Assembly (NCBI RefSeq): GCF_007954365.1
Contig: NZ_VOLO01000004.1
Location: forward strand, 62,001-126,000
Direction: 5' to 3'
DNA from: Frigoribacterium sp. ACAM 257
GTDB taxonomy: Bacteria; Actinomycetota; Actinomycetes; Actinomycetales; Microbacteriaceae
Length of the DNA stretch: 64,000 nucleotides
The position numbers and the translations under genes are program-made. Below the pieces are notes generated by a model. The model saw only the letters and a list, made by a program, of their open reading frames with translations. It had not been told where the DNA came from and searched no databases. Every line of letters starts with the position of its first letter. The first letter of the stretch is position 1. This document shows positions 19,319 to 45,975 of this stretch, one piece after another.

Positions 19319-19416
19319 TCGCCGTGGGGTGATCCGTAGTCAGCTGTCGCGTATCATCGGCGACACCTCGGCACGGCGGCCCCGATGCCGTGCCGCACAC
19401 GATCCGAGGACGGCAC

Positions 19417-21017: not shown

Positions 21018-21031
21018 TGTTACCGTGAACA
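21018..21031. promoter_or_regulatory. LacI-type operator upstream of the first GH43 gene
   Basis: TGTTACCGTGAACA, an imperfect 14-base palindrome found in exact form (either orientation) at 34107 and 37713 and in symmetrical form at 42850. It lies 55 bases before the GH43 start, overlapping the likely promoter (TTGACC at 21002). Confidence 0.75.
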
Positions 21032-21085
21032 TCACTGACAGCCTCAGCTCTCCTCAGCAACGACGCCGAACTAGGAGCACGTGTG

Positions 21086-23311
21086 ATGAAGCACTTCCCG
21101 CGACCGATCGTCCTCGCGACGACCGTGGTCCTCATGGCTCCCCTGTTGGCGACAGCGTCAGCATCCGCCGCTGCAGCCCAGGGTGACGCCCCGGCAGATG
21201 CCCTCGGTGCACCGGGTGAGATCCTTCGATATGACTTCGACGCCGATGCCGGCACAACTGTCCTCGACAGCTCTGGACATGGTCGGAACGGGGAGCTCGT
21301 CGCCGGCGGCACGTGGAACGACGGTGCTCTGCAACTCGACGGCGACGACGACTTCGTCAGGCTCCCGGACGACCTGCTCGCCGATGTCACCGACATCACG
21401 GTCGAGGCCGACGTCTGGATCGATCCCGCCCAGGCTTCCCCCTACTTCCTCTACGGGCTGGGCAACACGACGGCCGGAGCAGGCGACGGCTACCTCTTCA
21501 CCTCCGGAGACAACTACCGCACCAGCCTGACCACCGGCAACTGGACCACAGAGCAGACGGTGTCGCAGAGTGCAGCAGTGCCGCGCGGCACCTGGGCGCA
21601 CCTGGCGTACACGCTCGCCGGAACGACCGCCACCCTCTACCTCGACGGGGTGAAGGTCGGCAGCTCGACCGTGACCATCGATCCGAAGGACATCGGAGCC
21701 GGCAGGACGACGGCCAACTACATCGGCCGTTCGAACTACGACGCCGACAATCGCTTCCGAGGCCAGATCCGGGAATTCGCGATCTACGACCGAGCTCTGA
21801 GCCCGGCCGAGGTGCTCTCCGCCTCCGGGAACACGACGACCCTGTCCGACGTGACGATCGGCGGAGACGTCCTCAAGACCGCGCCGATCATCGACTCGGT
21901 CGATCGGGTCGTCACCTTACCGGTGAAGCCGGGTGTCGCGCTGACCTCCCTCGCTCCCACCTACACGACCGCGGCCGGCGTCGTCGCCAGCCCCGCCTCC
22001 GGGACCGTGCGCGATCTGTCCACGCCTCAGCGGGTGGTGCTCACGCCGCTAGACGGCGGCTCGCCGACCACCTGGACGCTGAAGGCGATCTCTATGGGGA
22101 GCCCCGCCATCCCCGGCCTCTACGCCGACCCCAACATCGCAGTCTTCGGAGACACCTACTACGTCTACGCCACGACCGACGGCGTCCCCGGCTGGGGCGG
22201 CAACCAGTTCTGGGTCTGGTCGTCGAAGGACCTCGTGGACTGGACTCGCTCGGACCAACCGATCCTGACCCTCGACGGTGCGAACGGGAACGTCCCCTGG
22301 GCGGCTGGCAACGCCTGGGCACCGACGATCTCGGAGAAGAACGGCAAATACTACTTCTACTTCTCCGGCCACAACGCCGCGCTGGACCGCAAGACGATCG
22401 GGGTCGCTGTCGCCGACAGCCCGACAGGCCCCTTCGCCGCACAGCCGACGGCCATGATCACGAACGGTGAGGCAGTCAACTCCGGGCAGGCCATCGATCC
22501 AGCCGCGTTCACCGACCCGGCGACGGGCAAGAGCTACCTCTTCTGGGGCAACGGAGTCCCCGTCTACGCCGAACTCGCCGACGACATGCTCTCGGTCAGA
22601 ACGGACACCATCAAGCGGATCGACGGCCTGACCGACTTCCGTGAGGGCGCCTTCGTCAACGTGCGCAACGGGCTCTACCACCTGACGTACTCCATCGACG
22701 ACACGGGGTCCGAGAACTACAGGGTCGGGTACGCCACTGCGACGAGCATCGACGGACCCTGGACCTACCGCGGTGTGGTCCTCGAGAAAGACCCTGCCCT
22801 GGGCATCCTCGCCACGGGCCACAACTCGATCATCAACGTGCCGGGCACCGACGACTGGTACATCGCCTACCATCGCTTCGCCTTCTCCGGCGGCGACGGC
22901 ACGCACCGTGAGACGACCATCGACCGGGTCACGTTCTCTCCGACGACCGGCCTCATGGAGAAGGTGCGACCGACGCTCGAGGGCGCCAGCGCTCAGGAGG
23001 TCGTCGACGTGGCCGTGCCCGCGGTCACCGTCACCGCCGCGAGCAGGACCCGCTGCGTGCAGGGCAAGGTCTTCCTCTCGGTGGCCGTCTCCAACCCGAA
23101 CACCTTCGCGATCAAGGTCGTCGTCACCTCGGCCCACGGCGTCAAGACGATCGACGAGATCGGCGCCGGGAAGAGCGCCACACACGCGTTCACCACCCGC
23201 GACGCGAGCGTCGCCGGCGGTCAGGTGAGCGTGTCCGCCACGGCGTTCGTCGCCGGCAAGCCCGCGACGACGAGCGCTGTTGCCACCTATCCCGCTGCTA
23301 GCTGCCGCTGA
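21086..23311 (+). CDS. Secreted GH43 glycosidase with N-terminal LamG domain
   Basis: A 741-residue exported enzyme. ATG 21086 has AGGAG eight bases upstream (GTG 21083 is possible). There is a signal peptide at ~1-31, a LamG/concanavalin-like domain at ~45-245, and a GH43 five-bladed propeller at ~335-620. The general base is probably Asp348 (GLYADPN), the pKa-modulating Asp is Asp471 (QAIDP) and the acid is Glu520 (FREGAF). GH43 members are arabinofuranosidases, arabinanases or xylosidases. The C-terminal ~90 residues form a domain with Cys after the first strand (RTRCVQGK) and a Cys two residues from the end, shared with three other GH43 proteins here. Sixty-seven bases separate it from the WxL-like gene, so an operon of enzyme and surface-complex genes is likely. 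Confidence 0.9.
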   Translation: MKHFPRPIVLATTVVLMAPLLATASASAAAAQGDAPADALGAPGEILRYDFDADAGTTVLDSSGHGRNGELVAGGTWNDGALQLDGDDDFVRLPDDLLADVTDITVEADVWIDPAQASPYFLYGLGNTTAGAGDGYLFTSGDNYRTSLTTGNWTTEQTVSQSAAVPRGTWAHLAYTLAGTTATLYLDGVKVGSSTVTIDPKDIGAGRTTANYIGRSNYDADNRFRGQIREFAIYDRALSPAEVLSASGNTTTLSDVTIGGDVLKTAPIIDSVDRVVTLPVKPGVALTSLAPTYTTAAGVVASPASGTVRDLSTPQRVVLTPLDGGSPTTWTLKAISMGSPAIPGLYADPNIAVFGDTYYVYATTDGVPGWGGNQFWVWSSKDLVDWTRSDQPILTLDGANGNVPWAAGNAWAPTISEKNGKYYFYFSGHNAALDRKTIGVAVADSPTGPFAAQPTAMITNGEAVNSGQAIDPAAFTDPATGKSYLFWGNGVPVYAELADDMLSVRTDTIKRIDGLTDFREGAFVNVRNGLYHLTYSIDDTGSENYRVGYATATSIDGPWTYRGVVLEKDPALGILATGHNSIINVPGTDDWYIAYHRFAFSGGDGTHRETTIDRVTFSPTTGLMEKVRPTLEGASAQEVVDVAVPAVTVTAASRTRCVQGKVFLSVAVSNPNTFAIKVVVTSAHGVKTIDEIGAGKSATHAFTTRDASVAGGQVSVSATAFVAGKPATTSAVATYPAASCR

Positions 23312-23378
23312 CCCCCGTCCCACCCTCACCACCCCACCGCGTCGGCGATGCTGCCCACGCAGAACGGAGACACCCGAG

Positions 23379-24005
23379 ATGAACACCCGCTCCCTCCTCG
23401 CCCGCGGAGCCGCAGGCCTGACCGGAGGCCTGCTCCTCCTCGGCGTCGCCAGCACGGCGGCCGCCGCAGAACCTGAGATCGGCACCGACGACGTCGACGT
23501 CACCGTCGACATCGCCCCCCTCAGCGGAGGAGGCGCTCTCGCCATGTCCGTGGCCGGCACCTCGTCCGCACTGGCCGAGAACGGCTCGACCGGCGTGATC
23601 CGCCAGTTCACCGGGACCCTGCCCACCGTCACCGTGACCGACACCCGCGATCCCGCCGACATCCCCGCGGACGCCGGCTGGTACGTCCTGGGGACCGCGA
23701 CCGACTTCGTCTCCTCAGACGGCCTGAGCACGATCGGCGCGGAGAACCTCGGCTGGGCTCCGAACCTCATCGACGGAGGCAACAGCGGCCTCGTCGCTGA
23801 GGGCGACGTCGTCGACACCGCCATCGATGGTGGGCCCGACGGCGTGGGCCTCGTCGACCAGGAGCTCCTGGCGATCACCGGCGACTCCGCCGGCATCGCG
23901 GGCGAGGGGTCGTGGACCGCGGACGCGGCGCTGACCCTGAAGACACCGACCACCGTCGACGCCGGCGATTACAGCTCCACCATCACGCTCTCCCTGTTCG
24001 AGTAA
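23379..24005 (+). CDS. WxL-like surface protein
   Basis: A 208-residue secreted protein with a signal peptide (~1-30, ending TAAAAE) and a beta-rich body. WTVTVTD-like strands are represented by LPTVTVTDTRD, and it ends TTVDAGDYSSTITLSLFE, like the C-terminal strand of WxL-domain proteins. WxL domains bind peptidoglycan and assemble with DUF916 partners on Gram-positive cells. The gene encoding a DUF916 protein follows at once, which strongly supports the call. It follows a GH43 gene by 67 bases. The canonical Trp-x-Leu pairs are only partly visible, so it is named WxL-like. Confidence 0.7.
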   Translation: MNTRSLLARGAAGLTGGLLLLGVASTAAAAEPEIGTDDVDVTVDIAPLSGGGALAMSVAGTSSALAENGSTGVIRQFTGTLPTVTVTDTRDPADIPADAGWYVLGTATDFVSSDGLSTIGAENLGWAPNLIDGGNSGLVAEGDVVDTAIDGGPDGVGLVDQELLAITGDSAGIAGEGSWTADAALTLKTPTTVDAGDYSSTITLSLFE

Positions 24006-24044
24006 CTTCCGCGAGGCACGCCCCTCATCCCCCCACAGCCGTGA

Positions 24045-24071
24045 GCGGCCGGGCACCTCGTGCCCGGCCGC
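24045..24071 (+). terminator. Strong hairpin between the WxL-like and DUF916 genes
   Basis: A perfect 12-bp stem (GCGGCCGGGCAC, loop CTC, complement to 24071) followed by TTCGTGCGT. It sits inside the putative operon, so it may reduce readthrough into the DUF916 gene or protect the upstream message. Confidence 0.75.
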
Positions 24072-24104
24072 TTCGTGCGTCCTATTCGAGATCCAGAGGT
24101 TTCC

Positions 24105-25226
24105 ATGACCGGTCCACGCCGATCCTCTTCCGGCGGGCGCCTTCCGGCGACGCGCCTCCCCACGCTCTCCGGGTTCGTCCTCGTCGGGCTCGTCACCGGG
24201 GGGTTGGTCGCGGCGGCCGCTCCGGCCGCGTCAGCCGCGTCAGCCCCCCAAGGCGTGACGTGGGCAGTGAGCCCCGCGACCGACGGCGCTCCGGACGAGC
24301 GATCCTGGGTCGAACTCGACCTCGGGCCCGGTGCCACCGCCTCCGACGAAGCTGCCGTTCGCAATCTCAGCGACGAGACCGTGACGTTCCGCATCGACGC
24401 GGCGGACGGCTACTTCACGGACGAGGGCCGCTTCTCCATGCTCCCCTCGGACAGGCCGTCGACGGACGCCGGTACCTGGATCTCCGCTCCCGAGACGGTC
24501 ACCATCGAGCCCGGAGCGACGGGCATCGTCCCGTTCACGGTCTCGGTGCCCTCGAATGCCGAGCCCGGAGACCACGCGGCCGGCATAGCGGCGTCCCTGG
24601 TGTCGGTCGGCTCCGGCGCCGGTGGCGCGTCCGTCGGGGTCGAGAGCCGCATCGGCTTCCGCGTGATGACCAGGGTGACCGGCGACGTCGTCCCGGGTGT
24701 CGCCGTCGACGGCATGCGGGTCGACTACCAGATGTCGTGGAACCCCTTCGCCGCCGGGTCGCTGACCGTCGAGGCCGACATCGTCAACACAGGCAACGTC
24801 CGCCTCGTCCTCGACGGGACCGTCCGCGCGCAGGGATCGTCCGCGCCGATCGTCGCCGAAGACGCCGCACGACAGGAACTGCTGCCGGGCGACCGCAGGG
24901 CGGTGTCGATCCCGCTCAGGGGCGTCTGGCCCCTCATCGTCGCGAGCGCCGAGCTGGAGGTCGCCCCCACGGTCGTCGCACCGGACGGAGGAGAGGCCGT
25001 CGATCTGGAGCCGGTCGCCGCCACGGCGACGGCCGCCGCAGTTCCGTGGCCACAACTGCTCGTCGTGCTCGGCGCGGCACTCGTCCTGTCGGCGCTCCTC
25101 GCGGGCCGTTCACGCTCACGCAGCCGTGTCGCCGCGCTCGTGCGGCAGGCCAAGGAGGAGGGCCTCCGGGAGGGCGCCGTCGGCGGGCGCACGGATGGCG
25201 GAAGCCCGAACGCGAACGATCGCTGA
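24105..25226 (+). CDS. DUF916-type WxL-interacting surface protein
   Basis: A 373-residue membrane-anchored protein starting at ATG 24105 with AGAGG close upstream. It has a signal peptide (~1-46), then an extracellular Ig-like region in which VTWAVSPATD and an acidic, P-loop-free beta fold match the DUF916 (WxLIP) family. SRIGFRVMTRVTGDVVPG is a typical segment. One C-terminal hydrophobic helix (~318-340) and an Arg-rich cytoplasmic tail anchor it. Family members bind WxL domains and hold them at the wall. In lactobacilli such sets (Csc clusters) are linked to plant oligosaccharide use, which suits the glycosidase neighbours. Confidence 0.85.
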   Translation: MTGPRRSSSGGRLPATRLPTLSGFVLVGLVTGGLVAAAAPAASAASAPQGVTWAVSPATDGAPDERSWVELDLGPGATASDEAAVRNLSDETVTFRIDAADGYFTDEGRFSMLPSDRPSTDAGTWISAPETVTIEPGATGIVPFTVSVPSNAEPGDHAAGIAASLVSVGSGAGGASVGVESRIGFRVMTRVTGDVVPGVAVDGMRVDYQMSWNPFAAGSLTVEADIVNTGNVRLVLDGTVRAQGSSAPIVAEDAARQELLPGDRRAVSIPLRGVWPLIVASAELEVAPTVVAPDGGEAVDLEPVAATATAAAVPWPQLLVVLGAALVLSALLAGRSRSRSRVAALVRQAKEEGLREGAVGGRTDGGSPNANDR

Positions 25227-25257
25227 ACAGCTCGTCGAGCGCAGGAACGGAAACGAC

Positions 25258-25285
25258 GAGAGCCGCCCCCGACGGGGCGGCTCTC
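25258..25285. terminator. Bidirectional terminator between convergent operons
   Basis: A perfect 12-bp stem (GAGAGCCGCCCC, loop CGAC, complement) lies between the rightward DUF916 gene and the leftward GH43-CBM42 gene, 32 bases from each. Confidence 0.85.
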
Positions 25286-25317
25286 GCGTCTCTCGTGGAG
25301 CTCAGTGTCCTGGGGAC

Positions 25318-26763
25318 TCAGGGGACGAGCCGGAAGGTGGCGTCTCCGTACTCGGCACTGGACACCGGGTCGATCCTCAACGAGAAGTCCCTGTGTCGCA
25401 GGTACCTGGTGGGGTAGTTGTAGCTCTGGAACGAGGACCAGGACGAGTCCGAGAGGCCGGCGACCTTCCTGAACGTCGCGTCAGCGGCGAAGCCGGCGCT
25501 GCCGTCGTTGGCGTTCAGGACGACAGAGAAGTTCGAGTGCCTGAGGTACTGGCCGGGGAAGTTGACCGACTCGAAGGAGACGGCGTTCGCGTCGGCCAGA
25601 CCAGGGACGATCTTCCACTGCGAGTCCTGCTGGAGGTCGAAGGGGAAGGCATCGATGCGTGCTGCCCCGCCCTGGTGACGGACGTACCGGTCAGGGAAGT
25701 TCGACGACTTGAGTCGCGTCGAGCTGGTCAGGCCGTACTTGCCGGTCAACCCGGTGTACTCGGAGGACGTGATGGGCTGGATGCTGTTGTGCTTGGACCC
25801 GATGGGGGCCGTGAAGTTCCGCTGGCTGAGCGGCGTCCACGATCCAGTCGTGACGCTGCCTTGCCAGACGTTGAACTTGTTGTTCGGGCAGTAGTTGTCG
25901 CCCCAGAGCCACCACGAGTTGGGGTCTGACAGAGATCGCACGACGGTGGGCGCCTCGACGCAGCCACCCTGGTACAGGCCGGTCGTGTACGGGGTGAACG
26001 AGCCCGGCGTGAGGGACGACGAGCGGGCGCCCATGAGGCCCGTCTGGTTGGGGGCAGGAGAACGGTAGTAGAGGTAGTTCACCCCGTTGATGTCGGTCTG
26101 CACGTCGGAGTCGATGACACCGCCCTGGCCGTTGTTGTCGAAGAACGTCACGGGTGCCGTCGTCGTCACGAAATCGGACGTGTAGACGACGAGGATCGTG
26201 CCGAACGGGCCACCCGTGGGACTCGCGCTGAACGTGATGCCGTACTTGGCACGCGTCGGGTCCCAGAAGATCGCGGGTGCCCAGGTGAACGAGTTGGGGT
26301 TCGCACTGTTGATGTTGAGCAGCCGGTCGCTCGACCAGTTGACCAGGTCAGGCGAGGTCCAGATGTGGATGGAGGGGTTGGCAGCCCCGAAGTTCTCGTT
26401 CTTGAGGTCCGTCGCCGTCATCACCCAGCTGCCGTCCTGCAGCCGGAAGAGGAACGGGTCGCGGATGCCCTTCGTCCCGAGCGTCGGGACGAGGATCGGG
26501 GCGTTGTCGTTGAGGGCCGTCCACTCGAGGGCGTCCTTGCTCACGGCGAGGTGCACGTTGTTGGAGTTGCCGGAGCCGTTGGGGCTCTCCTTGAAGTACG
26601 CCATGACGTAGGCGCTGTTGGCCGTCGCTGCTTCAGCCGGGGCTGTCTGCGGCGACGCCACGATGAACGCGCCGACCATGGCGGCGGATGCGGCGATGGT
26701 CGCGAGACGGCGCCGCCACGAGCTGCGGCCGGGGCCGGCGATGGAGTTCGATCTTGTTGACAT
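25318..26763 (-). CDS. Secreted GH43 exo-arabinofuranosidase-like enzyme with AbfB/CBM42 domain
   Basis: A 481-residue exported protein with a signal peptide (~1-46). A GH43 propeller (~50-345) shows KGIRDPFLF (general base Asp), GVIDSDV (second Asp) and GGCVEAPTVV (acid Glu). Residues ~350-481 are an AbfB/CBM42 beta-trefoil with repeated SxNFPxRYVRH-type motifs (SSNFPDRYVRH, SVNFPGQYLRH, SYNYPTRYLRH), which bind arabinofuranose. This architecture matches the Streptomyces exo-1,5-alpha-L-arabinofuranosidase type (GH43 subfamily 26), so action on arabinan is the best guess. Unlike the other four, it lacks the Cys-bounded C-terminal domain. It is the last of three leftward GH43 genes probably driven from the operator at 34107. 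Confidence 0.9.
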   Translation of the reverse strand: MSTRSNSIAGPGRSSWRRRLATIAASAAMVGAFIVASPQTAPAEAATANSAYVMAYFKESPNGSGNSNNVHLAVSKDALEWTALNDNAPILVPTLGTKGIRDPFLFRLQDGSWVMTATDLKNENFGAANPSIHIWTSPDLVNWSSDRLLNINSANPNSFTWAPAIFWDPTRAKYGITFSASPTGGPFGTILVVYTSDFVTTTAPVTFFDNNGQGGVIDSDVQTDINGVNYLYYRSPAPNQTGLMGARSSSLTPGSFTPYTTGLYQGGCVEAPTVVRSLSDPNSWWLWGDNYCPNNKFNVWQGSVTTGSWTPLSQRNFTAPIGSKHNSIQPITSSEYTGLTGKYGLTSSTRLKSSNFPDRYVRHQGGAARIDAFPFDLQQDSQWKIVPGLADANAVSFESVNFPGQYLRHSNFSVVLNANDGSAGFAADATFRKVAGLSDSSWSSFQSYNYPTRYLRHRDFSLRIDPVSSAEYGDATFRLVP

Positions 26764-27045
26764 GGTTCGCTTTCTAGGGTGGGTCAGTGGGTCGGGTCGG
26801 GGTGCGGATGCTCGAAGTCGCCGTGTGTGGGTGTGTGCCGGGACAGCCTCCTGGGACGTGGGCGGGTGTCTGACGGCGCGGCGCAGTGCGGGCCGAGACA
26901 GGCTTCTAGGTGATCAGGAAGGCATTGCCGTTGATGATCAGGACGTCGTCGTCGGACCCGGAGCTCCCGTCGACGAGATCCCTGTCGAGTTCTCCGCTCA
27001 GACGCGACAGACGACCGCCGATCGGCCCGCCCGTGCCCTCCCCGC

Positions 27046-30615: not shown

Positions 30616-30751
30616 CGTTCGTCAACTTCCGTGAGAGGTGCATCCGGGGAGCGCGGGCCGTTCGGTCCGCGCCCCCCGCTGGGCGGGAACCTCAGGCTCC
30701 CGAGTGCATGAGGTCCGGGCGGGGAGAGTGGCTGTCCTCCCGGAACCCGTG

Positions 30752-33697: not shown

Positions 33698-34263
33698 GAG
33701 GAGTCCTTCGCATGGTGGGGAGGGCGGGGAGTGAGGGCCAACTGGCCGTCTGCTTCTGGCGGAGGGCGAGCAGGAGCGGGTCGTCGGTGGGGAGGGCACG
33801 GCGAACAGCGACGCATGACAGCAAGGGCGCACGCTGTTCGCCCAGCTCGGGCCGAGCGCTGAGCGCTCGCCCGTGGGGGCGGTGAGCGCGAAGGGTCAGC
33901 CCGTGGACTCGTCAGCGGAGCGCGGGCCGCACGATGTCGGCCGGCAGGACCGGTGACCGGGGGACCAGGCCTGGCGGCCTCGTCTGGAAGGGGGTGGCGA
34001 CGTCGTCATCGACGTTCCTCTCAGGCTCTTCTTCGAGCCGATAGATCGGGGCGAGTCGGCTGGATCGTGTCCTGCGCGGCCTCTGATCGTCCACTGTATC
34101 CATTTTTGTTACCGTGAACAATGCCTGTTCCCGGCTGTGCGCTATGTGGCCACGCCTGGCAGCCAGGATGCGGCGCCCGAGATGCGCCGCAGCGCTTCTC
34201 AGCCCGTCCGGAGGTCTCAGAACGGGGCCGACCATCAAGCCGACCCCGCACTCTCGAGGCCCG
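33698..34263. other. Long leader and promoter region upstream of the GH43 trio
   Basis: This 566-base gap has no credible gene. Its right part carries the operator at 34107 and a promoter-like pair on the minus strand (TTGTTC, 17 bases, TACAGT). The ~410 bases from there to the GH43 start would be transcribed as an unusually long 5' leader with no recognised riboswitch. The last bases hold the end region of the preceding leftward gene. Confidence 0.6.
34107..34120. promoter_or_regulatory. LacI-type operator for the GH43 trio
   Basis: An exact TGTTACCGTGAACA. On the minus strand it overlaps the -35-like TTGTTC of a promoter whose -10-like TACAGT lies 17 bases further, so a bound repressor would block RNA polymerase. 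Confidence 0.75.
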
Positions 34264-37200
34264 TCAGCAGCGAGCTGCGGGGTAGGCCACGGTGACCGGT
34301 GTGCTCACGCCGCCGGTGACCGCCGTCCCTACGAGTGTCCCCGCGGTGATCGCGACCGCCCGCGTCGTGATCACGAGTGAGGCTGTCTTCTGCGCACCGA
34401 CGCTCTGCGTCCGCTCGCCCCAGGGGGTCGCCCAGGTGACGACCGCGGCCGCTCCGGAGTTCTTGGTCACGATCGTGACGACGGCCTTCCCCGCGATGCA
34501 CCTCGTCGTGGCCGCGGAGGTCACGGCCGAGGCCGTGGCGCGGACGACCACCGTGGCCGTGACGGTCCGATTGCTCGGAGCCACCTCCTGGTCCTTCGTC
34601 AACGACAGGTCGAGTGTGCCGTTGGCGCGGACGTTGACGCCCTTGAACCAGGTGTTCCGATCGGAGTCGAAGAGGCCGCCGGCGTTCTGAGGGTCCGTCA
34701 CCAGGTGCGGATCTTCGTACGGACGGGCATGGTACGCGAGGACGAGATTGCCCGATTCGTCCTTGGCGAACGAGTTGTGCCCCGTGCCGGCCTGCTGCCT
34801 CGTGTAGTAGCGGGTCTCGTCCGCCCCGAGACGGCCCGTCGAGGTGTCGTTGGTGTCCAGCACGGGGAAGCTGGTCTGCCTCCAGCTCGCCGGATCTTGG
34901 AGATCTGCGTCGGCAGTCGTCGTCAGGAGGCCCAAGCTGTAGTACTTGTCGACCGTGCCGCCGGAGTAGGTGATCGAGATGGCATCTCCTTGCTGCACCA
35001 TGAACGGGGCCTCGACGACCCCCTGGTCGCTTCCCTCGGACGTGTCGCTGGGCGTCGGAGACCGCTTGCCGAACTCCCACGGCTGGGACTCGCCGTAGAC
35101 GCGCCGGAGTTCGCCGTCGACGAGCGGGACGGTGCCCTTCGGCCCCGCCACGGCCTTCCCCACGAGGATCTGGCCGCCGGCGGGCATGATCCAGTAGCCC
35201 TGCTGCTCGCCTGCCTCCGTTCGCTCGAAGTAGCTGACGTCGAATGCGGCGCCGTCGAGGACGACGGGCTCGCCCCACTTCGTCTGGTCCAGGAATCCGC
35301 CCGCCGCGATGGACGCGTCCGTGCCCGTGTACGGGATCAGGACGGTGTTGTCGCACCACCCGCCGACGGGTGCGTAGCCCTTGTTCATGCCTGCGACGAT
35401 CCACCACGTGCCGTTGATCTTGTGGAACTCCTGCGCCCAGATGTAGCCGCCCCAGCCGTAGAAGGTGTTCGGGTACTGCGCTTCCTTGCCGGGCGTGCCC
35501 TGGTCGGGGTCGATGACGATCTGCTCCGGGGCGTCCCGGAGCCCCGCGAGCGTCTTCGCTCGCTTGAGGCCGATCTTGCGGTAGCTCGAGCTCTCCTCGA
35601 TCGGCCCCAGGGAGGGCTGTCCGTAGTGCGACCCGGTGAGGTAGTAGTATCCGTCGTCGGGGTTCAGGAACACGTACGGATCGGCGCGCGCATCGCTGAC
35701 CATCTCCTCGGGATCCTGCTGGAGCGTCCCCGAGACCTGGTAGCTGCCCGGCTTGGTGGTGTCCACGCCGGTGAGGTCGTCCTGCCAGTCGACGTTGAGG
35801 CTCTTCCTCGACCCGTCGTTGTAGGTCAGGGCCGCCTGCTTCGGCAGAGCGGCAGCGACACCCTCGGCGCCGGCACCCTGGGCGACGGAGGCGTCGATCG
35901 TCTCGACGCCCGTGTTCCGGAGGTCGACGTAGTTCTTGTAGAAGGCGTCGAACTCCGTCGTGGACAGCAGGGAGTCGCTCGCCTGGCTCTGTGTGGCCCA
36001 CGACGGGAGCCCTGCTCCCTGCACGCCGAGTACTCGGACGTCCGCTTCGGACGTGACTCCGAGCGGGGTGCTCGTGGTCAGATCTGCGAGGATCGTCACG
36101 CGACCTCTGCCGGTGAGCAGGTCCGTCCAGAAGACCTTGTACTTCTGGGAGGCAGGGTCGAACACGATGCGAGGGTCGGTCACGACAGATCCGGGGGCGA
36201 TCTTCACGGACCGCTGCTGCGCGAACGTGCGCCCCTCAGGCGAGTTCCACACGTAGACGGAATCGGTCGCGTTGTTCTGGGACGACACGGCACCGAGAGC
36301 CCCGTCGGCGAGGCGGAAGAGGCTCGGTGATCCCACCTGGGCGTTCGGCCTGGAAGCCTGGTCGCCGTCGTTGCCCACGTACAAGATCGCCTGTGAGCGG
36401 TTCAACGGCTCCCAGCTGCTGCTGCCGGTCGGCAGAGCCGCGGCGTACACCGCGTCGGCACGACGGTCGTCGTTGTAGGCCAAGGGATCGTCCTTCGTCC
36501 CCCCGGTGGTCGTCACCGTCTTGACGTAGGTGGCGATGCGCCCGCCAGGAGCCGCGATGCGGCTGTCCCAGCGGAAGCTCTGGGCGGTGCCCTCGACGGC
36601 GGCCGTGAGCGTCACGGCCACCGCTGCCGAGCCGAGACCGGCGGTGTCGATGGTCCCGTTCGGCCGCACCCTGCTCGCGCCGGCGCCGGTGGCAGTCCAC
36701 GTGACCGGCTTGCCGAGGACCTGCGACGGCAGATCCCCGAGCACCGTGGACGGGACTGCCAGGGCGGCACCCACGTCGGACGGCAAGGCGGCGGCCTCTG
36801 CACCGAGTTCCGCACCGGACAGCGCCCGGTCGTAGATGCGCAGGTTGTCGATCAGGCCGGAGAAGTACTCGCCTGAGCCCCAGTTGGCCTTGCCCACCTG
36901 CAGGACTCCGCCGGATGATCCGAGGATCTGGCTCAGAGGGATCCCGGAACCGTTGACGGCGACGGGCTTCTTGTCGACGAAGAGCCGCGTCGTCGTGTCG
37001 GTGACGACCAGGTCGACGTGCTTCCACTCCGCGTTCGGCGTGGTCGCCTCCAGGTTGCCGGCGGAGTTGCGTGCGGCGGCGTTGTCGTAGCGCTCGACGG
37101 TGATGCCGGTCGTCCGATCGAGCACTCCGAGATAGTGTTCCTGGGCGTACTCCTGGCGAGTGGCGGACCGAGCGGCGAAGACGGTCCAGCCGGCGTTCGC

Positions 37201-37587
37201 CGACGAGTCCGGCTTGCTGTCGTAGGAGATCGTGACGCTCTGCCGGCCCGCGAGGAGCGCTTTTCCGTCAGTGTCGGTCAGGTTCAGCCACGACCTGTCG
37301 GAGAGTCGCGCTGCCGTCCCCTGCCCCGACTTGCCGGGGGCCAGGTTCGCGACGCCCTCGACCGCGGCACGGGTCGTACGGTCGACGAACGCACCGTCGA
37401 CCGGAGCCGAATCGAAACTGAGGTCAGCGAGGAGGCTCTGCTCCGGGGAAGCCACTGCCTCCCCCGCCGATGCCGATGCCGCCGGGACCGAGCAGGAGAG
37501 CAGCAGCGCCACAGTCGCGACGGCAGCCGTGACGGGAAGGCGCGAGGATGACGACAGTGAGCCTGTCGGGCGGGGGGACGTCGACAT
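34264..37587 (-). CDS. Large secreted multidomain GH43 glycosidase with N-terminal LamG
   Basis: A 1107-residue exported protein with a signal peptide (~1-41) and a LamG-like domain (~50-265, GLIDNLRIYDRALSGAEL). An Ig-like segment precedes a first propeller-like region (~355-560, IATYVKTVTTTGGT). A short Ig-like piece (WQDDLTGVDTTKPGSYQV) precedes a GH43 domain with ARADPYVFLN (base Asp), AAFDVSYFE (second Asp) and VVEAPFMV (acid Glu). It ends with the Cys-bounded domain (TTRCIAGK ... AARC as the final residue). The domain order is the same as in the 27046-30615 protein, so they are diverged paralogues. It has its own operator at 37713. Confidence 0.87.
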   Translation of the reverse strand: MSTSPRPTGSLSSSSRLPVTAAVATVALLLSCSVPAASASAGEAVASPEQSLLADLSFDSAPVDGAFVDRTTRAAVEGVANLAPGKSGQGTAARLSDRSWLNLTDTDGKALLAGRQSVTISYDSKPDSSANAGWTVFAARSATRQEYAQEHYLGVLDRTTGITVERYDNAAARNSAGNLEATTPNAEWKHVDLVVTDTTTRLFVDKKPVAVNGSGIPLSQILGSSGGVLQVGKANWGSGEYFSGLIDNLRIYDRALSGAELGAEAAALPSDVGAALAVPSTVLGDLPSQVLGKPVTWTATGAGASRVRPNGTIDTAGLGSAAVAVTLTAAVEGTAQSFRWDSRIAAPGGRIATYVKTVTTTGGTKDDPLAYNDDRRADAVYAAALPTGSSSWEPLNRSQAILYVGNDGDQASRPNAQVGSPSLFRLADGALGAVSSQNNATDSVYVWNSPEGRTFAQQRSVKIAPGSVVTDPRIVFDPASQKYKVFWTDLLTGRGRVTILADLTTSTPLGVTSEADVRVLGVQGAGLPSWATQSQASDSLLSTTEFDAFYKNYVDLRNTGVETIDASVAQGAGAEGVAAALPKQAALTYNDGSRKSLNVDWQDDLTGVDTTKPGSYQVSGTLQQDPEEMVSDARADPYVFLNPDDGYYYLTGSHYGQPSLGPIEESSSYRKIGLKRAKTLAGLRDAPEQIVIDPDQGTPGKEAQYPNTFYGWGGYIWAQEFHKINGTWWIVAGMNKGYAPVGGWCDNTVLIPYTGTDASIAAGGFLDQTKWGEPVVLDGAAFDVSYFERTEAGEQQGYWIMPAGGQILVGKAVAGPKGTVPLVDGELRRVYGESQPWEFGKRSPTPSDTSEGSDQGVVEAPFMVQQGDAISITYSGGTVDKYYSLGLLTTTADADLQDPASWRQTSFPVLDTNDTSTGRLGADETRYYTRQQAGTGHNSFAKDESGNLVLAYHARPYEDPHLVTDPQNAGGLFDSDRNTWFKGVNVRANGTLDLSLTKDQEVAPSNRTVTATVVVRATASAVTSAATTRCIAGKAVVTIVTKNSGAAAVVTWATPWGERTQSVGAQKTASLVITTRAVAITAGTLVGTAVTGGVSTPVTVAYPAARC

Positions 37588-37712
37588 TGACGGTTCCTCT
37601 CAGGATTCGCCTCTGAATCCGATGCGGATGGAACGGAAGTGACAGCGCGAATGCGCCACACGAGCCGACCTGGGGGTTGAGGCCAGGTGGACAAGCTGAA
37701 CCTAATGCAGAT

Positions 37713-37726
37713 TGTTCACGGTAACA
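37713..37726. promoter_or_regulatory. LacI-type operator for the 34264-37587 gene
   Basis: TGTTCACGGTAACA, the exact complement of the operators at 21018 and 34107. It lies 126 bases before the start codon and, on the minus strand, overlaps TTGTTA of a promoter-like pair (17-base spacer, TAGGTT). Confidence 0.75.
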
Positions 37727-37740
37727 AGAACAGGGTCGGA

Positions 37741-37893
37741 ACAGGCGGGGCCTGTCCCGAAGGATGCGAGCCATGAGGGTCTGGTCACGACGAACGGCTG
37801 CGCTGCACTCCGATCTGGAGCGCGACGCAGCCGTTCGGGGGGTGAGACTGCGCTGCACCCCGATCCTGATCCCGTGTGCAGCGCAGCCGTTCG
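37741..37893. terminator. Multi-hairpin terminator region after the permease operon
   Basis: ACAGGC/GCCTGT forms a small hairpin at 37741-37755. CGAACGGCTGCGCTGCA (37791-37807) can pair fully with 37877-37893, or by its first 12 bases with 37826-37837, giving mutually exclusive hairpins. It follows the transporter operon end at 37935 on the minus strand and precedes the next leftward promoter. Confidence 0.6.
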
Positions 37894-37934
37894 TGGAGAG
37901 TGCGGGCAGACGATGCCCGACTCAGGGTGCCGAC

Positions 37935-38993
37935 TCAGGTCTGCCGACGTCTCGCCATCACAGCGCGCTGCAGGAGCACGAAGACCAGGAGGATCCCACC
38001 GGTGATGATGGTGGTCGCCTCGGGCGGGATGCCTCCGTCTCGCGTGATGAGCACGTTCATCAGTCCGAGCACGAGTGCCCCCACGACGGACCCGAGCACG
38101 AAGCCGACGCCTCCCGTGAGGAGGGTGCCGCCGATCACCGTCGCGGCGATCGAGTCGAGCTCCCAGCCGATGCCCGTGATGTTCTGCGCGCTCCCGAGTC
38201 TGGCCGTGTAGATGACCGAGGCGAGCCCGGCGAGCGAACCGCTGATGATGTAGACCGCGAGCTTGGTGCGGCGGACGGGGAGCCCCATGAGGGCGGCCGA
38301 CTGCTCGGATCCGCCTATCGCGTACACGGTGCGGCCGAGGCGTGTGCGGTGCAGCACGAAGAACGCGACGGCCACCACGACCAGCGCGATGAGCACGCCC
38401 GGCGTCGTGACGATGTCGTTCACCTTCGGGCCGTCGACCACCTTCATGTTCGTGGCGAGCGACCGGATGGGCGACTCGTCGCCGAGGCGCTCGGGCACCG
38501 TGCTGAGGATGGAGGCGAGGCCGCGGCCGAGGAACATCATCGCGAGCGTCGCGATGAACGGCTGCACGTCGAAGAACTGGATCAGCACGCCGGACACGAC
38601 GCCGGATGCCGTGCCGATGAGGATCATGAGCACCATCACTGCCCACGGGTTCCAGCCGGCGTTGGCGAGCAGCACGCCTGCGACGCTGCTGACGGCGACG
38701 ATCGCGCCGACGGAGAGGTCGATCCCGCCCGTCAGGATCACGAACGTCAGCCCCACGGCCAGGACGATCACATGTGCGTTGTTGATGAGGAGGTTCGACA
38801 AGGTCGCGGCCTGCACGATGCGGCCGTAGGCGATCTCACCGTAGGCCAGCATCGCGATCAGGATCACCAGGGCGGCGACGGTCGGCAGGGAGTCGAGCCG
38901 GAGTCGCATGCGGCGCCGCGGCTCCAGGGGCCCGCTGCCGGGACCAGGTGCCGGCGTCGGGGTGAGGGGCGGGCGGATCGTGGTGGCGCTCAT
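37935..38993 (-). CDS. Sugar ABC transporter permease, YjfF-like
   Basis: A 352-residue inner-membrane protein of the BPD_transp_2 (RbsC-like) family with about ten helices after a Pro-rich N-terminus. TFVILTGGIDLSVGAI and TGGVGFVLGSVVGALVLGLM are the typical conserved stretches. The ATG at 38993 overlaps the previous permease stop by four bases. Having two different permeases after one ATPase is characteristic of YtfQRT-YjfF (galactofuranose) and AraUVWZ (arabinose) systems. It is the last gene of the operon. Confidence 0.92.
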   Translation of the reverse strand: MSATTIRPPLTPTPAPGPGSGPLEPRRRMRLRLDSLPTVAALVILIAMLAYGEIAYGRIVQAATLSNLLINNAHVIVLAVGLTFVILTGGIDLSVGAIVAVSSVAGVLLANAGWNPWAVMVLMILIGTASGVVSGVLIQFFDVQPFIATLAMMFLGRGLASILSTVPERLGDESPIRSLATNMKVVDGPKVNDIVTTPGVLIALVVVAVAFFVLHRTRLGRTVYAIGGSEQSAALMGLPVRRTKLAVYIISGSLAGLASVIYTARLGSAQNITGIGWELDSIAATVIGGTLLTGGVGFVLGSVVGALVLGLMNVLITRDGGIPPEATTIITGGILLVFVLLQRAVMARRRQT

Positions 38994-40081
38994 GCGGACA
39001 CGGCCTCCTTCTCGGTGGGCACGGGGGTGGGCACCGGACGTCGGCGCCTCGTGAACAGGGCGCGGACGCGCCGGGACTGCAGGAGCACGATCGCGACGAT
39101 GACGATCGCCTTGAATGCGGGCGTGGCCGAGGACGAGACGCCCAAGAACACGACGGTCTTGTCGAGCGTGGCGATCAACAACGCTCCGACGGCAGCTCCG
39201 AGCAGGTGGAATTTTCCGCCTGCCAGGGACGTGCCCCCGATCACGACAGCCAAGATGGCGTCGAGCTCGAGCTGGTAGCCGGTGCGGGAGACGTCGACCG
39301 TCATGACGCTCGACGTGGCGAAGATGCCAGCCACGCCGGCGAGCAGGCCGCTGCCGATGTAGGCGGTGAACAGGAGCGCCCGTCGGTCGAGTCCCGCGAG
39401 GCGGGCGGCCTTCGGGTCCATCCCGATCGCCTCGATCATGAGGCCCAGGGCGCTGCGCCGCACGAGCGCAGCGACGCCGAGCGTGATCAGGACCGCGAGG
39501 AGGAACACGACCGGCAACCCCACGAGGTAGCCGTTGGCGACCCAGCGGAACGGCTCGTTGGAAGCGGCGGTGTTCTGGCCGCCCGTGATGACCTTCGCCA
39601 GGCCGCGGCCGGCGAGCATGATCACCAGCGTGCTGATGAACGGCTGCAGCCCCACGACCGAGACGAGCATGCCGTTGACCGCGCCGAGGATGCCGGCGAT
39701 CAGGAGAGCCAGGCCCATCGCCGCGAGCGCGACGCCGAGGGAGTCGGAGCCGGCTGCCTTCAGGAACTCCATCGAGACTGCACCCGCCACGACCATGATC
39801 GAGCCGACGCTGAGGTCGATGCCGCCGGTGGCGACCACGAGGCACATGCCGACCGCGATCATGAGCACAGGGGCGGCTGCGCGGAGGATGTCGATGAGGT
39901 TGCCCACGAGGTTGCCGGTGTCCGGGTTGACGGACAGAGCGAGGTAGCCGGGGTCCTTGGCCACGTTGATCGCCAGCAGCAGGACGATCGCGACCGTGCC
40001 CCAGACCCAGGGCCGGTGCAGCACGTCGCCGAGGCCGTGCAGGCCCAGGCGCCTGGTCACGGGGATTGTCGGGTCACTCAT
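38990..40081 (-). CDS. Sugar ABC transporter permease, YtfT-like
   Basis: A 363-residue RbsC-family membrane permease. Conserved MCLVVATGGIDLSVGSIM and GGTSLAGGKFHLLGAAVGAL segments mark the family. Its ATG overlaps the ATPase stop by four bases (ATGA) and its stop overlaps the second permease start in the same way, indicating translational coupling. It forms a heterodimeric channel with the next gene product (inference from YtfT/YjfF). The likely substrate is a furanose-form or open-access pentose/hexose such as arabinose. Confidence 0.92.
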   Translation of the reverse strand: MSDPTIPVTRRLGLHGLGDVLHRPWVWGTVAIVLLLAINVAKDPGYLALSVNPDTGNLVGNLIDILRAAAPVLMIAVGMCLVVATGGIDLSVGSIMVVAGAVSMEFLKAAGSDSLGVALAAMGLALLIAGILGAVNGMLVSVVGLQPFISTLVIMLAGRGLAKVITGGQNTAASNEPFRWVANGYLVGLPVVFLLAVLITLGVAALVRRSALGLMIEAIGMDPKAARLAGLDRRALLFTAYIGSGLLAGVAGIFATSSVMTVDVSRTGYQLELDAILAVVIGGTSLAGGKFHLLGAAVGALLIATLDKTVVFLGVSSSATPAFKAIVIVAIVLLQSRRVRALFTRRRRPVPTPVPTEKEAVSA

Positions 40082-41652
40082 CGGGCTGCCTCCTCAGGCG
40101 TGGTGTGGGGGACGGTCTCGAGAGGGACCTCGGAGACGCCCTCTTCAGCGATGGCGGCGACGATGGACTCGGCAGTCACGTCCGGTCCGGCCTCGAGCTC
40201 CGCGATCTTGCGGTGGTCCTTCAGGACGACGATCCTGTCGCTGAGCCGCACCACCTCCTCGAGTTCGGAGGAGATGAACACGACGGCGACACCCGTGTCG
40301 GCGAGCGCCGCGACCTGCTCCTGGATCTCGGCCTTGGCGCCCACGTCGATGCCGCGGGTGGGCTCGTCGAGGATCAGCAGCTCCGGCTCGGTCGCGAGCC
40401 ACCTGCCGAGCAGCACCTTCTGCTGGTTGCCGCCGGACAGGTTCCGGATGGGCCGATCAGGATCGGCCGGTCTGACGTTGAGCTCGGTGAGGTACTTCTT
40501 GACGACCCGGTCCTTCTCCTTCGCGGAGAGCGGCCGGGCCCAGCCGCGCTTCGCCTGGACGGCGAGCACCAGGTTCTCACGGACGCTGAGGTCACGGATG
40601 ATGCCCTCGTCACGGCGGTTCTCGCTCGAGAACGCGATGCGGTGCTTGAGAGCCTTCGCGGGAGAGGAGATGGCGACGGGGACGCCGTCCATGGTCACGG
40701 TTCCCGTGTCGGGTCGGTCGACGCCGTAGAGGAGGCGAGCGAGCTCGGTGCGGCCGGAGCCGAGGAGCCCTGCAAGGCCGACGACCTCGCCGCGACGGAG
40801 TGCCACGTCGGTGGCGTCGAGCGAGCCCTTCCGGCCGATACCTGTCGCTCGGTAGACGGGCTCACCCTCGGCGACCTGTCGGCTGGCCCGCTCACGGTCG
40901 AGGGAGCGGAGGCTCTGCAGGTCCTTCCCGATCATCTCGGCGATGAGCCCGGCCCGGTCGATGTCGCGGGTGAGGTGCTCCCCGACGAGCTTGCCGTTCC
41001 GGAGCACGGTGAGCCTGTCGCTGATGGCGAAGACCTGGTCGAGGAAGTGGGAGACGAAGAGGATGGCGACTCCTTCGTCACGAAGCCGCCGCATCACTCG
41101 GAAGAGCCCCTCGACCTCGTCGGCGTCGAGGCTGGAGGTCGGTTCGTCGAGGATCAGCACCTTGGCGTCGACGACCGTGGCACGACTGATCGCGACGAGC
41201 TGCTGGAGCGCGAGGCTGAGGGAGGAGAGCGGGGTGCGGGGGTCGAGGTGACCAAGACCCACACGGGCGAGGACGTCGGAGGCGGCAGCGTGCGTCCCCT
41301 TCCAGTCGATCCCGAACCGGCCGCGCCGCTCGTGGCCGAGCATGACGTTCTCGCCGATGGTGAGGTTGGCGCAGAGGTTGACCTCTTGATAGACCGTGGA
41401 GATCCCGGCGGCCTGCGCATCGGCGGTGCCGGAGAGCCGGCGCTCGGCGCCGTCGACGACGACGCGGCCGGAGTCGATGCCGTAGACGCCCGTGAGCGCC
41501 TTGATCAGCGTCGACTTGCCGGCGCCGTTCTCGCCCATGAGCGTGTGGACCTCGCCGGGGAAGAGACGGAGGTCGACCCCGTCGAGCGCTTTGACCCCGG
41601 GGAAGGCGATGGTGATGGCTTGCATCTCCACGATCGGACTGGATGCCTGCAT
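40078..41652 (-). CDS. Sugar ABC transporter ATPase, YtfR/AraV-like
   Basis: A 524-residue tandem ATPase with AAGGAG eight bases before ATG 41652. The N-terminal half has GENGAGKST, YQEVNL and LILDEPTSSLD; the C-terminal half has GLLGSGRTEL, LSGGNQQK and LILDEPTRGID. It energises the two permeases encoded by the next two overlapping genes, with the lipoprotein at 41770 delivering substrate. It is the only one of the island's three RbsA-type ATPases with cognate permeases beside it. Confidence 0.93.
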   Translation of the reverse strand: MQASSPIVEMQAITIAFPGVKALDGVDLRLFPGEVHTLMGENGAGKSTLIKALTGVYGIDSGRVVVDGAERRLSGTADAQAAGISTVYQEVNLCANLTIGENVMLGHERRGRFGIDWKGTHAAASDVLARVGLGHLDPRTPLSSLSLALQQLVAISRATVVDAKVLILDEPTSSLDADEVEGLFRVMRRLRDEGVAILFVSHFLDQVFAISDRLTVLRNGKLVGEHLTRDIDRAGLIAEMIGKDLQSLRSLDRERASRQVAEGEPVYRATGIGRKGSLDATDVALRRGEVVGLAGLLGSGRTELARLLYGVDRPDTGTVTMDGVPVAISSPAKALKHRIAFSSENRRDEGIIRDLSVRENLVLAVQAKRGWARPLSAKEKDRVVKKYLTELNVRPADPDRPIRNLSGGNQQKVLLGRWLATEPELLILDEPTRGIDVGAKAEIQEQVAALADTGVAVVFISSELEEVVRLSDRIVVLKDHRKIAELEAGPDVTAESIVAAIAEEGVSEVPLETVPHTTPEEAAR

Positions 41653-41769
41653 GGCGTGTGCTCCTTGTCTGCCGACTCCCCCGCCCGCTGCCGTGGCAGC
41701 GGACGGGGGTGGCGGGGGCGGCGAGGCGGTCAGGTCCGCCTCGCCGCCGGGTGTGGCCGTGCGGACGGG

Positions 41770-42753
41770 TCAGAACTTCCGGTCGGGCAGTGCCGTGGCG
41801 GCCGCCTCGGGCGAGTCGAACGTGGCCGACTGGACGACGATCGAGGACTCGACGGTGTCGCCGTCGAGCAGCTTCTGTACCGCCTCGAGGGCCGTGTCGC
41901 CGAACAGCGGGTTGTACTCGGCGACGAAGCTGAGCTTGCCGTCGGCCAGCGCCTCGAGCGCGCTCTTCGTTCCGTCGATCGTGGCGATCTTGACGTCCAC
42001 GCCGGGCGTGAGTCCCGCCTCCTCGACAGCCTGGACGGCTCCGAGGCCCATCTCGTCGTTCTGCGCGAAGACGAGCTGCACGTCGTTGCCGTTCGACTTC
42101 AGCACGGTCTCGAAGACGCTCTTGGCCTCCTCGGTCGACCAGTTGGCGGTCTGCGCGCCGATCTTCGTGAACGAGCTCTCGGCGCCGATCACCTCGTCCC
42201 AGCCCTCGTTGCGCTCGTTCACGACCGAGACGCCGGCAGGGCCCTCGAGCGTGAAGTACTTGCCGCCCTCGGGGAGAGCGGTCTTGGCCCACTCGGCGAC
42301 CGACTCGCTGACGGCGATGTTGTCGGGGGCGATCCGAGTCGCGTAGAGCGAGGTGTCGTCGGGCTCGATGCCGCGGTCGATGAGGACCACGGGGATCTCG
42401 GCCTCCTTCGCCCTCTCGAGCGAGTCCTCCCAGCCGGAGCCCTCGGTGGCCGAGAGCAGGATCACGTCGACGCCCTCGTCCACGAACGACGTGAAGGCGT
42501 CGATCTGCGACTTCTGGTCGTTGTTGGTGGCAGGGGCGTACTTGAGGTCGAACCCGGCCTCCTTCGTGAAGGTGTCCTGGATGTTCGACTCGTTGGCCTG
42601 ACGCCAGGCGCCCTCGGGGCCGACCGCGACGAAGCCGATCGTGGCCAGATCGTCACCGCCGTCGGTCGAACCGGTGCCGGAGCTGCAGGCCGCCAGGCTG
42701 AGGGCGATGGCCCCTACGGCGGCGATTGTGGCGATGCGCCTCTTCGTGGACAT
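41770..42753 (-). CDS. Sugar-binding lipoprotein of the ABC transporter, YtfQ-like
   Basis: A 327-residue periplasmic-binding-type lipoprotein. ATG 42753 follows AAGGAGG. The lipobox LSLAACSS gives a lipidated Cys near residue 22. The mature part has the type I sugar-binding fold with FVAVGPEGAWRQANE, DVILLSATEGSGWED, VLIDRGI and FAQNDEMGLGAVQAVEEAG, close to YtfQ/AraU proteins that bind galactofuranose or arabinose. It is the first gene of the four-gene transport operon, 117 bases before the ATPase gene, with its operator 97 bases upstream of the start. Confidence 0.93.
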   Translation of the reverse strand: MSTKRRIATIAAVGAIALSLAACSSGTGSTDGGDDLATIGFVAVGPEGAWRQANESNIQDTFTKEAGFDLKYAPATNNDQKSQIDAFTSFVDEGVDVILLSATEGSGWEDSLERAKEAEIPVVLIDRGIEPDDTSLYATRIAPDNIAVSESVAEWAKTALPEGGKYFTLEGPAGVSVVNERNEGWDEVIGAESSFTKIGAQTANWSTEEAKSVFETVLKSNGNDVQLVFAQNDEMGLGAVQAVEEAGLTPGVDVKIATIDGTKSALEALADGKLSFVAEYNPLFGDTALEAVQKLLDGDTVESSIVVQSATFDSPEAAATALPDRKF

Positions 42754-42849
42754 GGATCTCCTCCTTGAGATGACCGGACGTCTGCGTCCGGTCGTGGCCA
42801 TGGGGGCCGGTCGTGCTGCGTGGGCTCGGGTGCTTCCGCTTGTCGGGAA

Positions 42850-42863
42850 TGTTACCGGTAACA
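42850..42863. promoter_or_regulatory. Fully palindromic LacI-type operator of the transport operon
   Basis: TGTTACCGGTAACA, a perfect 14-base palindrome and the symmetrical version of the three other operators. On the minus strand it covers the -10-like TAACAT of a promoter whose TTGTCA lies 18 bases upstream. Confidence 0.8.
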
Positions 42864-42934
42864 GTCTTCCGATGACAAGAGCTGCCGGGAACATTCGTCA
42901 GCGGGTGGACAGCGGCGCGTCAGGCCCGCCGTCG

Positions 42935-44608: not shown

Positions 44609-44732
44609 GTGGTGCTCCTCGGGTCGGAGGCCTCGACGGCCTCGTGCCGGGCGGTGCCCGACGTGCACGACTGTAGCTGTCGGGATGCACGCGGGCGAAC
44701 GGCGACGAGCTGGATTACCTCAGATGGCCATC

Positions 44733-45752: not shown

Positions 45753-45830
45753 CCAGACTCCATCCTGCACGCTTCGCAACGCAGCTTGGCGTCATCTGCG
45801 CCGGCGTTGACGTCGTTCAGTGGCGCTGAT

Positions 45831-45842
45831 CCAGTGTACTGG
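45831..45842. promoter_or_regulatory. Possible operator upstream of LacI copy 2
   Basis: CCAGTGTACTGG, two 5-base inverted arms around GT. It differs from the TGTTACCG family, so if it is functional it is bound by something else. Confidence 0.3.
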
Positions 45843-45975
45843 GGGCCTTGCTGACTGCGAGGAACGATGTGTCCCGACAACTCGCCCGATCCGGTGCGTT
45901 GTCACGGGGCGTAGTGAACAGACTTGATCGGACACAAGACACCGGCCGAGGGGCAAGAGCTGCCAAGGTCGCCGC

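Follow-up and report, generated by a model that had tools for sequence, protein, structure and literature searches.

Two putative operator classes and two sister LacI-family proteins at a GH43 and sugar-importer locus of Frigoribacterium

The window analysed here, 64,000 nucleotides of Frigoribacterium sp. ACAM 257 DNA (contig C9, positions 62001-126000, of a 3.33-Mb assembly), carries two LacI-family regulator genes, lacI1 and lacI2, whose clusters lie within 28 kb of one another and between which are found five GH43 enzyme genes and the genes of a sugar importer (Table 1); an AmiS/UreI gene adjoins the lacI2 end. Our subject is a set of four short sequences placed before these enzyme and importer genes, which are very probably operators read by the two LacI proteins. 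What was computed directly is where the sites lie, how rare they are elsewhere, how well they are conserved, how they co-occur with lacI genes and how operator class matches LacI clade.

The GH43-importer cluster and its four sites

As the first-pass annotation had proposed, five GH43 genes are present, one of which, GH43B, scores 31.2 bits against Pfam, just below the 32.2 cut-off, yet carries an AbfB domain. The PDB matches of four of the five proteins (GH43A, GH43B, GH43D and GH43E) bear mixed names: arabinofuranosidase, arabinanase and xylosidase/xylanase. GH43D, GH43C and GH43B are taken as one unit because they are consecutive and on the same strand, with no terminator-like site listed between them on that strand. 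The annotation had also named a WxL/DUF916 pair; its DUF916 half is found (PF06030), but the WxL half is not confirmed, the product of 23280-24005 having neither a Pfam match nor a W-x-L motif. The secreted family to which the latter belongs adjoins a DUF916 gene in all 11 loci that show both, the window included.

Table 1. Genes and putative regulatory sites of the cluster (positions in the window)
Feature	Position	Strand	Basis
LacI1, predicted LacI-family repressor, associated with class A sites	18254-19318	+	Pfam LacI, Peripla_BP_3; tree
ATP1, sugar ATP-binding cassette (ABC) ATPase directly downstream of lacI1	19390-20961	+	
Putative class A operator TGTTACCGTGAACA, before GH43A	21018-21031	+	
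GH43A with LamG domain, likely ATG 21086	21083-23311	+	
Secreted protein, no assigned family, supposed WxL partner, likely ATG 23379	23280-24005	+	
DUF916 / WxLIP_PGBD protein	24060-25226	+	Pfam PF06030
Terminator-like hairpin after GH43B	25256-25287	-	
GH43B with AbfB domain	25318-26763	-	
GH43C	27046-30615	-	
GH43D open frame, likely ATG 33697	30752-33832	-	
Putative class A operator, before GH43D-C-B	34107-34120	-	
GH43E	34264-37587	-	
Putative class A operator, before GH43E	37713-37726	-	
YjfF-like permease	37935-38993	-	
YtfT-like permease	38990-40081	-	
YtfR-like ATPase of importer	40078-41652	-	
YtfQ-like sugar-binding protein	41770-42753	-	
Putative class B operator TGTTACCGGTAACA, before importer	42850-42863	-	
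ATP2, sugar ABC ATPase directly downstream of lacI2	42935-44668	-	
LacI2, predicted LacI-family repressor, associated with class B sites	44733-45779	-	Pfam; tree

The four sites occur exactly where they had been reported: TGTTACCGTGAACA at 21018, at 34107 and, inverted, at 37713, and the perfect palindrome TGTTACCGGTAACA at 42850. All have the form of LacI-type operators, an even palindrome with a central CG, and each does lie upstream of an enzyme or transport unit, 54 bases before GH43A, 126 before GH43E, 97 before the binding-protein gene and about 409 before the likely ATG of GH43D. With up to three mismatches allowed the window holds seven matches (the palindrome counted on both strands), against a mean of 1.13 and a largest value of 5 in 100 shuffles. 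Scanning the whole genome for the 14-mer (3,332,072 bases, 14 contigs), as had been suggested with the annotation, returned three exact copies, all inside the window; allowing two mismatches added the palindrome and two poorer places, both on contig C6. The reversed pattern, used as control, gave no exact match and only one when two mismatches were allowed. A hand-weighted matrix, into which the window's own sites entered, scores these sites at 26-28 bits and the next-best match in the window at 10 bits. Its best match falls below zero both in the stretch scanned before lacI1 (18000-18330) and in that between lacI2 and AmiS (45700-46000), in keeping with the earlier remark that the LacI-ATPase modules and AmiS have no site upstream.

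Operator classes and LacI clades across genomes

The sites before the three GH43 units fit the pattern TGTTCACGNTAACA on one strand or the other (class A), and the importer site fits TGTTMCCGGKAACA (class B). Class A patterns are scarce: among 299 genomes of the family, 38 sites occur in 12, with 31 in the six genomes of the LacI1 clade (3-7 in each) and 7 in six others, so that the class is present in 6/6 LacI1-clade genomes and in 6/293 others. The reversed pattern yields four sites, none of them in the six. Class B sites, for which the control yields none, occur in 35/299 genomes: in 20 of the 25 that have an orthologue other than LacI1 (LacI2 and outgroup LacIs), compared with 15 of the remaining 274. 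The five of the 25 in which class B is missing (G038, G113, G181, G206 and G292) coincide with the five rows that make up one deep branch of the LacI tree; in four, variants such as TGTTACCGGTCACA stand close to the LacI gene, and G038 has only the distant TGTTCCCGTTAACA. All four genomes with both LacIs (G000, G008, G123, G307) carry class B beside lacI2 and the importer and class A beside lacI1. Class A matches in three genomes of genus g55 (G069, G237, G277) were set aside as unrelated; the genus is without these LacI genes, and in G069, the only one of the three examined, the site (L208, 6834) lies between a flagellar-type sigma-factor gene and flgN.

The association also holds for a more general pattern, TGTTMNCGNKAACA. 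A LacI2 relative (E 1e-100 or better) is found in 28/299 genomes, and the pattern in 27 of these (91 sites) as against 90 of the other 271 (Fisher p 2e-11), a value which, like all p values here, overstates independence since the genomes are related. The sole genome with a relative but no pattern, G113, is 66% complete. Within Frigoribacterium, intact LacI2 (at least 97% identity) is present in four of 16 genomes and the palindrome in the same four; the other 12 have no exact palindrome, though two (G010, G015) have one place each at one mismatch. G014 had seemed to be a LacI2 genome without operator and was rejected as such: the gene is truncated at about 230 residues and joined to the end of a permease gene, and the genome yielded no operator. 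At L068 14274-15232, in Frigoribacterium sp. CFBP 13712, a natural deletion has truncated lacI2 at about 230 residues and fused it into the end of a yjfF-like gene, and the ATPase, operator and importer that would stand between them are missing.

The idea of two classes was formed on the 299 genomes and then tried on genomes of Rathayibacter (15) and Clavibacter (18). Ten Rathayibacter genomes have LacI1 (80-83% identity), each with 3-6 class A sites; of those without a LacI match, one site is present in G232, none in G273 and nine in G310. Two Clavibacter genomes have LacI1 (82-84%), with seven and four class A sites, and none is seen either in the 11 with a LacI2-type protein alone (68-69%) or in the five with neither. 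Counting only the 22 new genomes, at least three class A sites are present in 7/7 with intact LacI1 (all Rathayibacter) and in 1/15 others, G310 (p 5e-5); the threshold of three was set after the first genome set had been seen, and at one site or more the figures are 7/7 and 3/15. G310, with its nine sites and no LacI1 match at E 1e-130, was rejected as an exception: its LacI1 is split over two frames, as are its YtfR-like and YtfT-like neighbours.

These counts bear on two other accounts. Fourteen bases are few, and the general palindrome turns up at least once in 117/299 genomes, as would be expected of a chance or non-regulatory repeat; from base composition, however, a genome of this kind should have about 0.009 sites of class A and 0.017 of class B, where three of class A are seen, and the sites are conserved between genera and class A co-occurs with LacI1, making this account scarcely credible. 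That some other regulator binds the sites and the LacI genes are mere neighbours is very improbable. The genome does have 19 matches to the LacI helix-turn-helix (HTH), and similar palindromes exist in genomes without these LacI genes, but of the 19 only LacI1 and LacI2 carry the recognition helix SHMTVSR, and the sites come and go with lacI1 and lacI2 across genomes. We see strong support for an operator type on which the two local LacI proteins act: it is nearly absent elsewhere in the genome, is conserved, and co-occurs with a LacI gene over the 299 genomes.

How the sites are shared between the two proteins is less plain. The first-pass annotation had placed all four in one regulon, which the data bear out in part: the two classes follow the two LacI clades, and two sister regulons, possibly overlapping, appear more likely than one. 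The competing proposal is that both LacIs, or heterodimers of them, bind all four sites alike, the class difference reflecting drift along two lineages. It draws on the identity of the recognition helices and the 70% identity (229/328) of the two proteins, on the proximity of the clusters here (28 kb), where enzymes and importer would need joint induction, and on the mixed classes in G314 and G197. We consider it unlikely, given that class tracks LacI clade in the 299 genomes and again in the new ones, that the 11 LacI2-only Clavibacter genomes are without class A, and that the four two-LacI genomes keep each class at its own locus. Nor need heterodimers be invoked for the asymmetric class A site, for the ten LacI1 Rathayibacter genomes have one orthologue each, and no second, at E 1e-130. 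We therefore favour, at a probability of about 0.72, the reading in which two paralogous LacI-family repressors, encoded at either end of the cluster, use the four sites as operators, LacI1 acting mainly on the class A units and LacI2 mainly at the class B importer.

Several observations weigh against this reading. The 15/274 genomes without a non-LacI1 orthologue that nonetheless show TGTTACCGGTAACA-type sites indicate that other regulators use similar sites, and in three of the 27 genomes above (G038, G181, G292) the visible pattern matches are not beside the LacI gene. G197, whose LacI is of the class B kind, has two class A sites, before a gene with a ricin-type lectin domain and a GH43-like gene; in each of the Rathayibacter genomes G314 and G315, whose LacI shares 68% identity with LacI1, a single class A site precedes a GH43A-like gene, and in G314 one class A and two class B sites fall within about 10.5 kb. 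Conversely, a lone class B site is found in G059 and in G183, two of the three genomes of the set with LacI1 only, in each case on another contig than lacI1. The identical recognition helices leave room for cross-binding, and the GH43A promoter is weak on paper, a single weak pair with 19-bp spacing. The mixtures in G197 and G314 mean that the classes are not strictly exclusive, and proteins of the LacI2 kind may, in some species, also act at class A sites.

LacI specificity, promoters and the proposed mode of control

The LacI tree comprises 42 rows and is midpoint-rooted; L178 was dropped as short, duplicates and L083 (a split LacI1) were left out, and no row was dropped for lacking the helix motif. 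The LacI1 clade has support of 100/100 and its union with the LacI2 clade 95/91; class A accordingly looks derived. Residues 13-23 (numbered by alignment with E. coli LacI), recognition helix included, are invariant in all 42 rows. Of 58 positions in the DNA-binding domain only 51 and 55 set the LacI1 clade apart from all others, with V or I in place of L, M, G, T or S at position 51 and S in place of E, Q or A at position 55. Both residues belong to the hinge helix and adjoin the leucine that inserts into the central CG (PMC2978694), and the bases by which classes A and B differ are two and three from the operator centre. Since the LacI1 clade arose only once, the suggestion that residues 51 and 55 set operator class is a lead, not a proof. 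Residue 57 (AA-55 of the published numbering), given in PMC2978694 as the hinge determinant of position NT-2, was rejected as the cause of the class change, being V in both paralogues.

Promoter-like sequence overlaps the sites, as the annotation had noted, to differing degrees: the 42850 site overlaps a 9/12 sigma-70-like match (one found in 25001-45000, 0.5 expected), and the other three overlap weaker matches of 7-8/12. The GH43D operator overlaps a -35-like TTGTTC (34121-34116) upstream of a -10-like TACAGT (34098-34093), and the GH43E operator a -35-like TTGTTA (37727-37722) upstream of TAGGTT (37704-37699). The two arrangements, TTGTT(C/A), 17 bp, then TACAGT or TA(G/C)GTT, are both kept in 5/5 aligned genomes, other genera included. 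At the importer the second half of the palindrome forms a -10-like TAACAT, and a TTG-containing -35-like stretch lies upstream in 8/8 genomes. The four site alignments comprise 8, 4, 5 and 5 genomes, hand-chosen from those fetched, the palindromic site being used for Clavibacter importers with two; in all four the operators are kept while the upstream DNA has diverged between genera, the exceptions being a single differing base in the GH43E operator of G008 and altered inner positions in the GH43D operator of G183. The Clavibacter importers have two operators 34-35 bp apart (L168 7732/7767, L169 12123/12158, L172 7997/8031) where Frigoribacterium has one. The GH43D messenger RNA would have a leader of about 400 bases (33698-34106), of which the first 110 bases, conserved in Clavibacter and Rathayibacter, include a start-like AGAGGAAC...ATG resembling the GH43E start.

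From the overlap of operators with promoter-like elements we infer repression by promoter blocking. LacI dimers on their sites would, without inducer, cover the -10 or the -35 and keep RNA polymerase from four units: GH43A with the pair of genes that follow it (a), GH43D-C-B (b), GH43E (c) and the YtfQRT-YjfF-like importer (d). LacI1 would act mainly at the class A sites (a-c) and LacI2 mainly at the class B site (d), how strictly being a matter of inference, as is the inducer. The latter, presumably arabinose or else a short arabino-oligosaccharide, in either case coming from arabinofuranosyl plant glycans, would release the repressors, upon which secreted enzymes and uptake would rise together. 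In Clavibacter (G123, G307) and one Rathayibacter (G310) the order is LacI1-ATP1-[class A]-importer-[class A]-GH43A, whereas the window and G008 have no importer between ATP1 and GH43A. The enzymes thus stand under LacI1-type operators and the cluster's importer beside LacI2 in these Frigoribacterium genomes, and their joint control would need a shared inducer or cross-binding. The LacI1 cluster of G307, with importer and GH43 genes, is on a 123-kb contig (C2; L170, L171) apart from lacI2, possibly a plasmid.

Substrate, spare ATPases and known LacI regulons

GH127 is the beta-L-arabinofuranosidase family. Class A sites of Rathayibacter precede GH127 genes (L203, L215, L216) and GH43 genes (L213, L219); three further targets there (L202, L204, L205) have Ig-like or LamG domains only. 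In the Clavibacter genome G123 two class A sites stand upstream of an AbfB-GH43 orthologue (91%) that is separated from lacI1 by 2.2 Mb of the contig. It is mainly because GH127 and GH43 genes carry the same sites in relatives that an arabinofuranosyl substrate is proposed; the link of the regulon to arabinose, through enzyme families and these targets, is indirect. The best-matching NCBIfam models of the importer's four proteins are those of YtfQRT-YjfF, the E. coli galactofuranose importer, and among PDB entries the binding protein matches YtfQ best, but all four fall short of the curated equivalog cut-offs (binding protein 202/510 bits, ATPase 631/850, YtfT 241/535, YjfF 274/363); context points to an arabinofuranosyl ligand. 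Frigoribacterium orthologues of the binding protein are 78-80% identical to it, compared with 95-98% for the importer ATPase and permeases, a divergence that might reflect faster change or exchange of the ligand-binding part.

The ATPase gene behind lacI is a constant companion. We inspected 41 LacI loci (one genome counted twice, L077 and L183; one ATPase seen across a slice edge, L180/L181): an ABC ATPase lies directly downstream in 33/33 with LacI identity of at least 64%, Glycomyces included, and in none of the eight at 61% or below. Wherever the importer is in view it has an ATPase of its own besides, to which ATP1 and ATP2 of the window are 58% and 59% identical (62% to each other), and neither of these two genes has an operator. 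The role of the spare ATPase is a matter for conjecture: it might belong to the signal path, reporting transport activity to LacI or keeping up scouting import under repression, in a sensing module that co-travels even to Glycomyces and whose operators are retuned through hinge residues 51 and 55, a scheme we regard as a long shot.

Our literature search, in which motif logos and RegPrecise were out of reach, found no earlier description of this regulon. The locus would provide plant-associated Microbacteriaceae with a well-bounded regulon for the use of arabinofuranosyl glycans. Its LacI paralogues form a natural pair with one recognition helix, different operator classes and, in the DNA-binding domain, two hinge residues that tell the LacI1 clade from the rest, so that two proteins and two oligonucleotides would suffice to test how the hinge helix sets specificity near the operator centre. 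An unexplained association is the spare ATPase gene that constantly accompanies lacI.

The system appears to be of a known and ordinary kind, a local sugar regulon of the LacI family, in which the sisters seem to prefer slightly different operators: both regulators have a LacI HTH and a sugar-binding domain (Pfam), palindromic operators precede co-located sugar genes, and operator and regulator co-occur across genomes. In PMC4052901, 1173 of 1303 LacI-family regulators have an even palindrome with central CG, which the window sites share together with their place before sugar genes, and 72% of those studied are autoregulated; autoregulation of lacI1 and lacI2 was rejected, no site being present in the stretches scanned before either gene. 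The LacI recognition code of PMC2978694 is matched by the window proteins in their TVSR subgroup, in the guanine at NT-6 with arginine at AA-20 and in the hinge leucine in the central CG; the paralogues have all recognition-helix residues and the V at LacI 57, the code's NT-2 determinant, in common, and it is residues 51 and 55 that differ. The closest parallels are the Bifidobacterium regulators AauR, AbfR, AauU1/2 and BauR1/2, compared here by their published description (PMC5928203). These too are local regulators of the LacI family, whose predicted targets are arabinofuranosidase genes close by, GH43 among them, and a sugar ABC importer; the BauR1 regulon contains GH127, and several such regulators occur in one strain, with regulons replaced or overlapping. 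The window differs from them in its YtfQRT-YjfF-like importer, in the extra ABC ATPase behind each lacI and in lacI genes that are not autoregulated.

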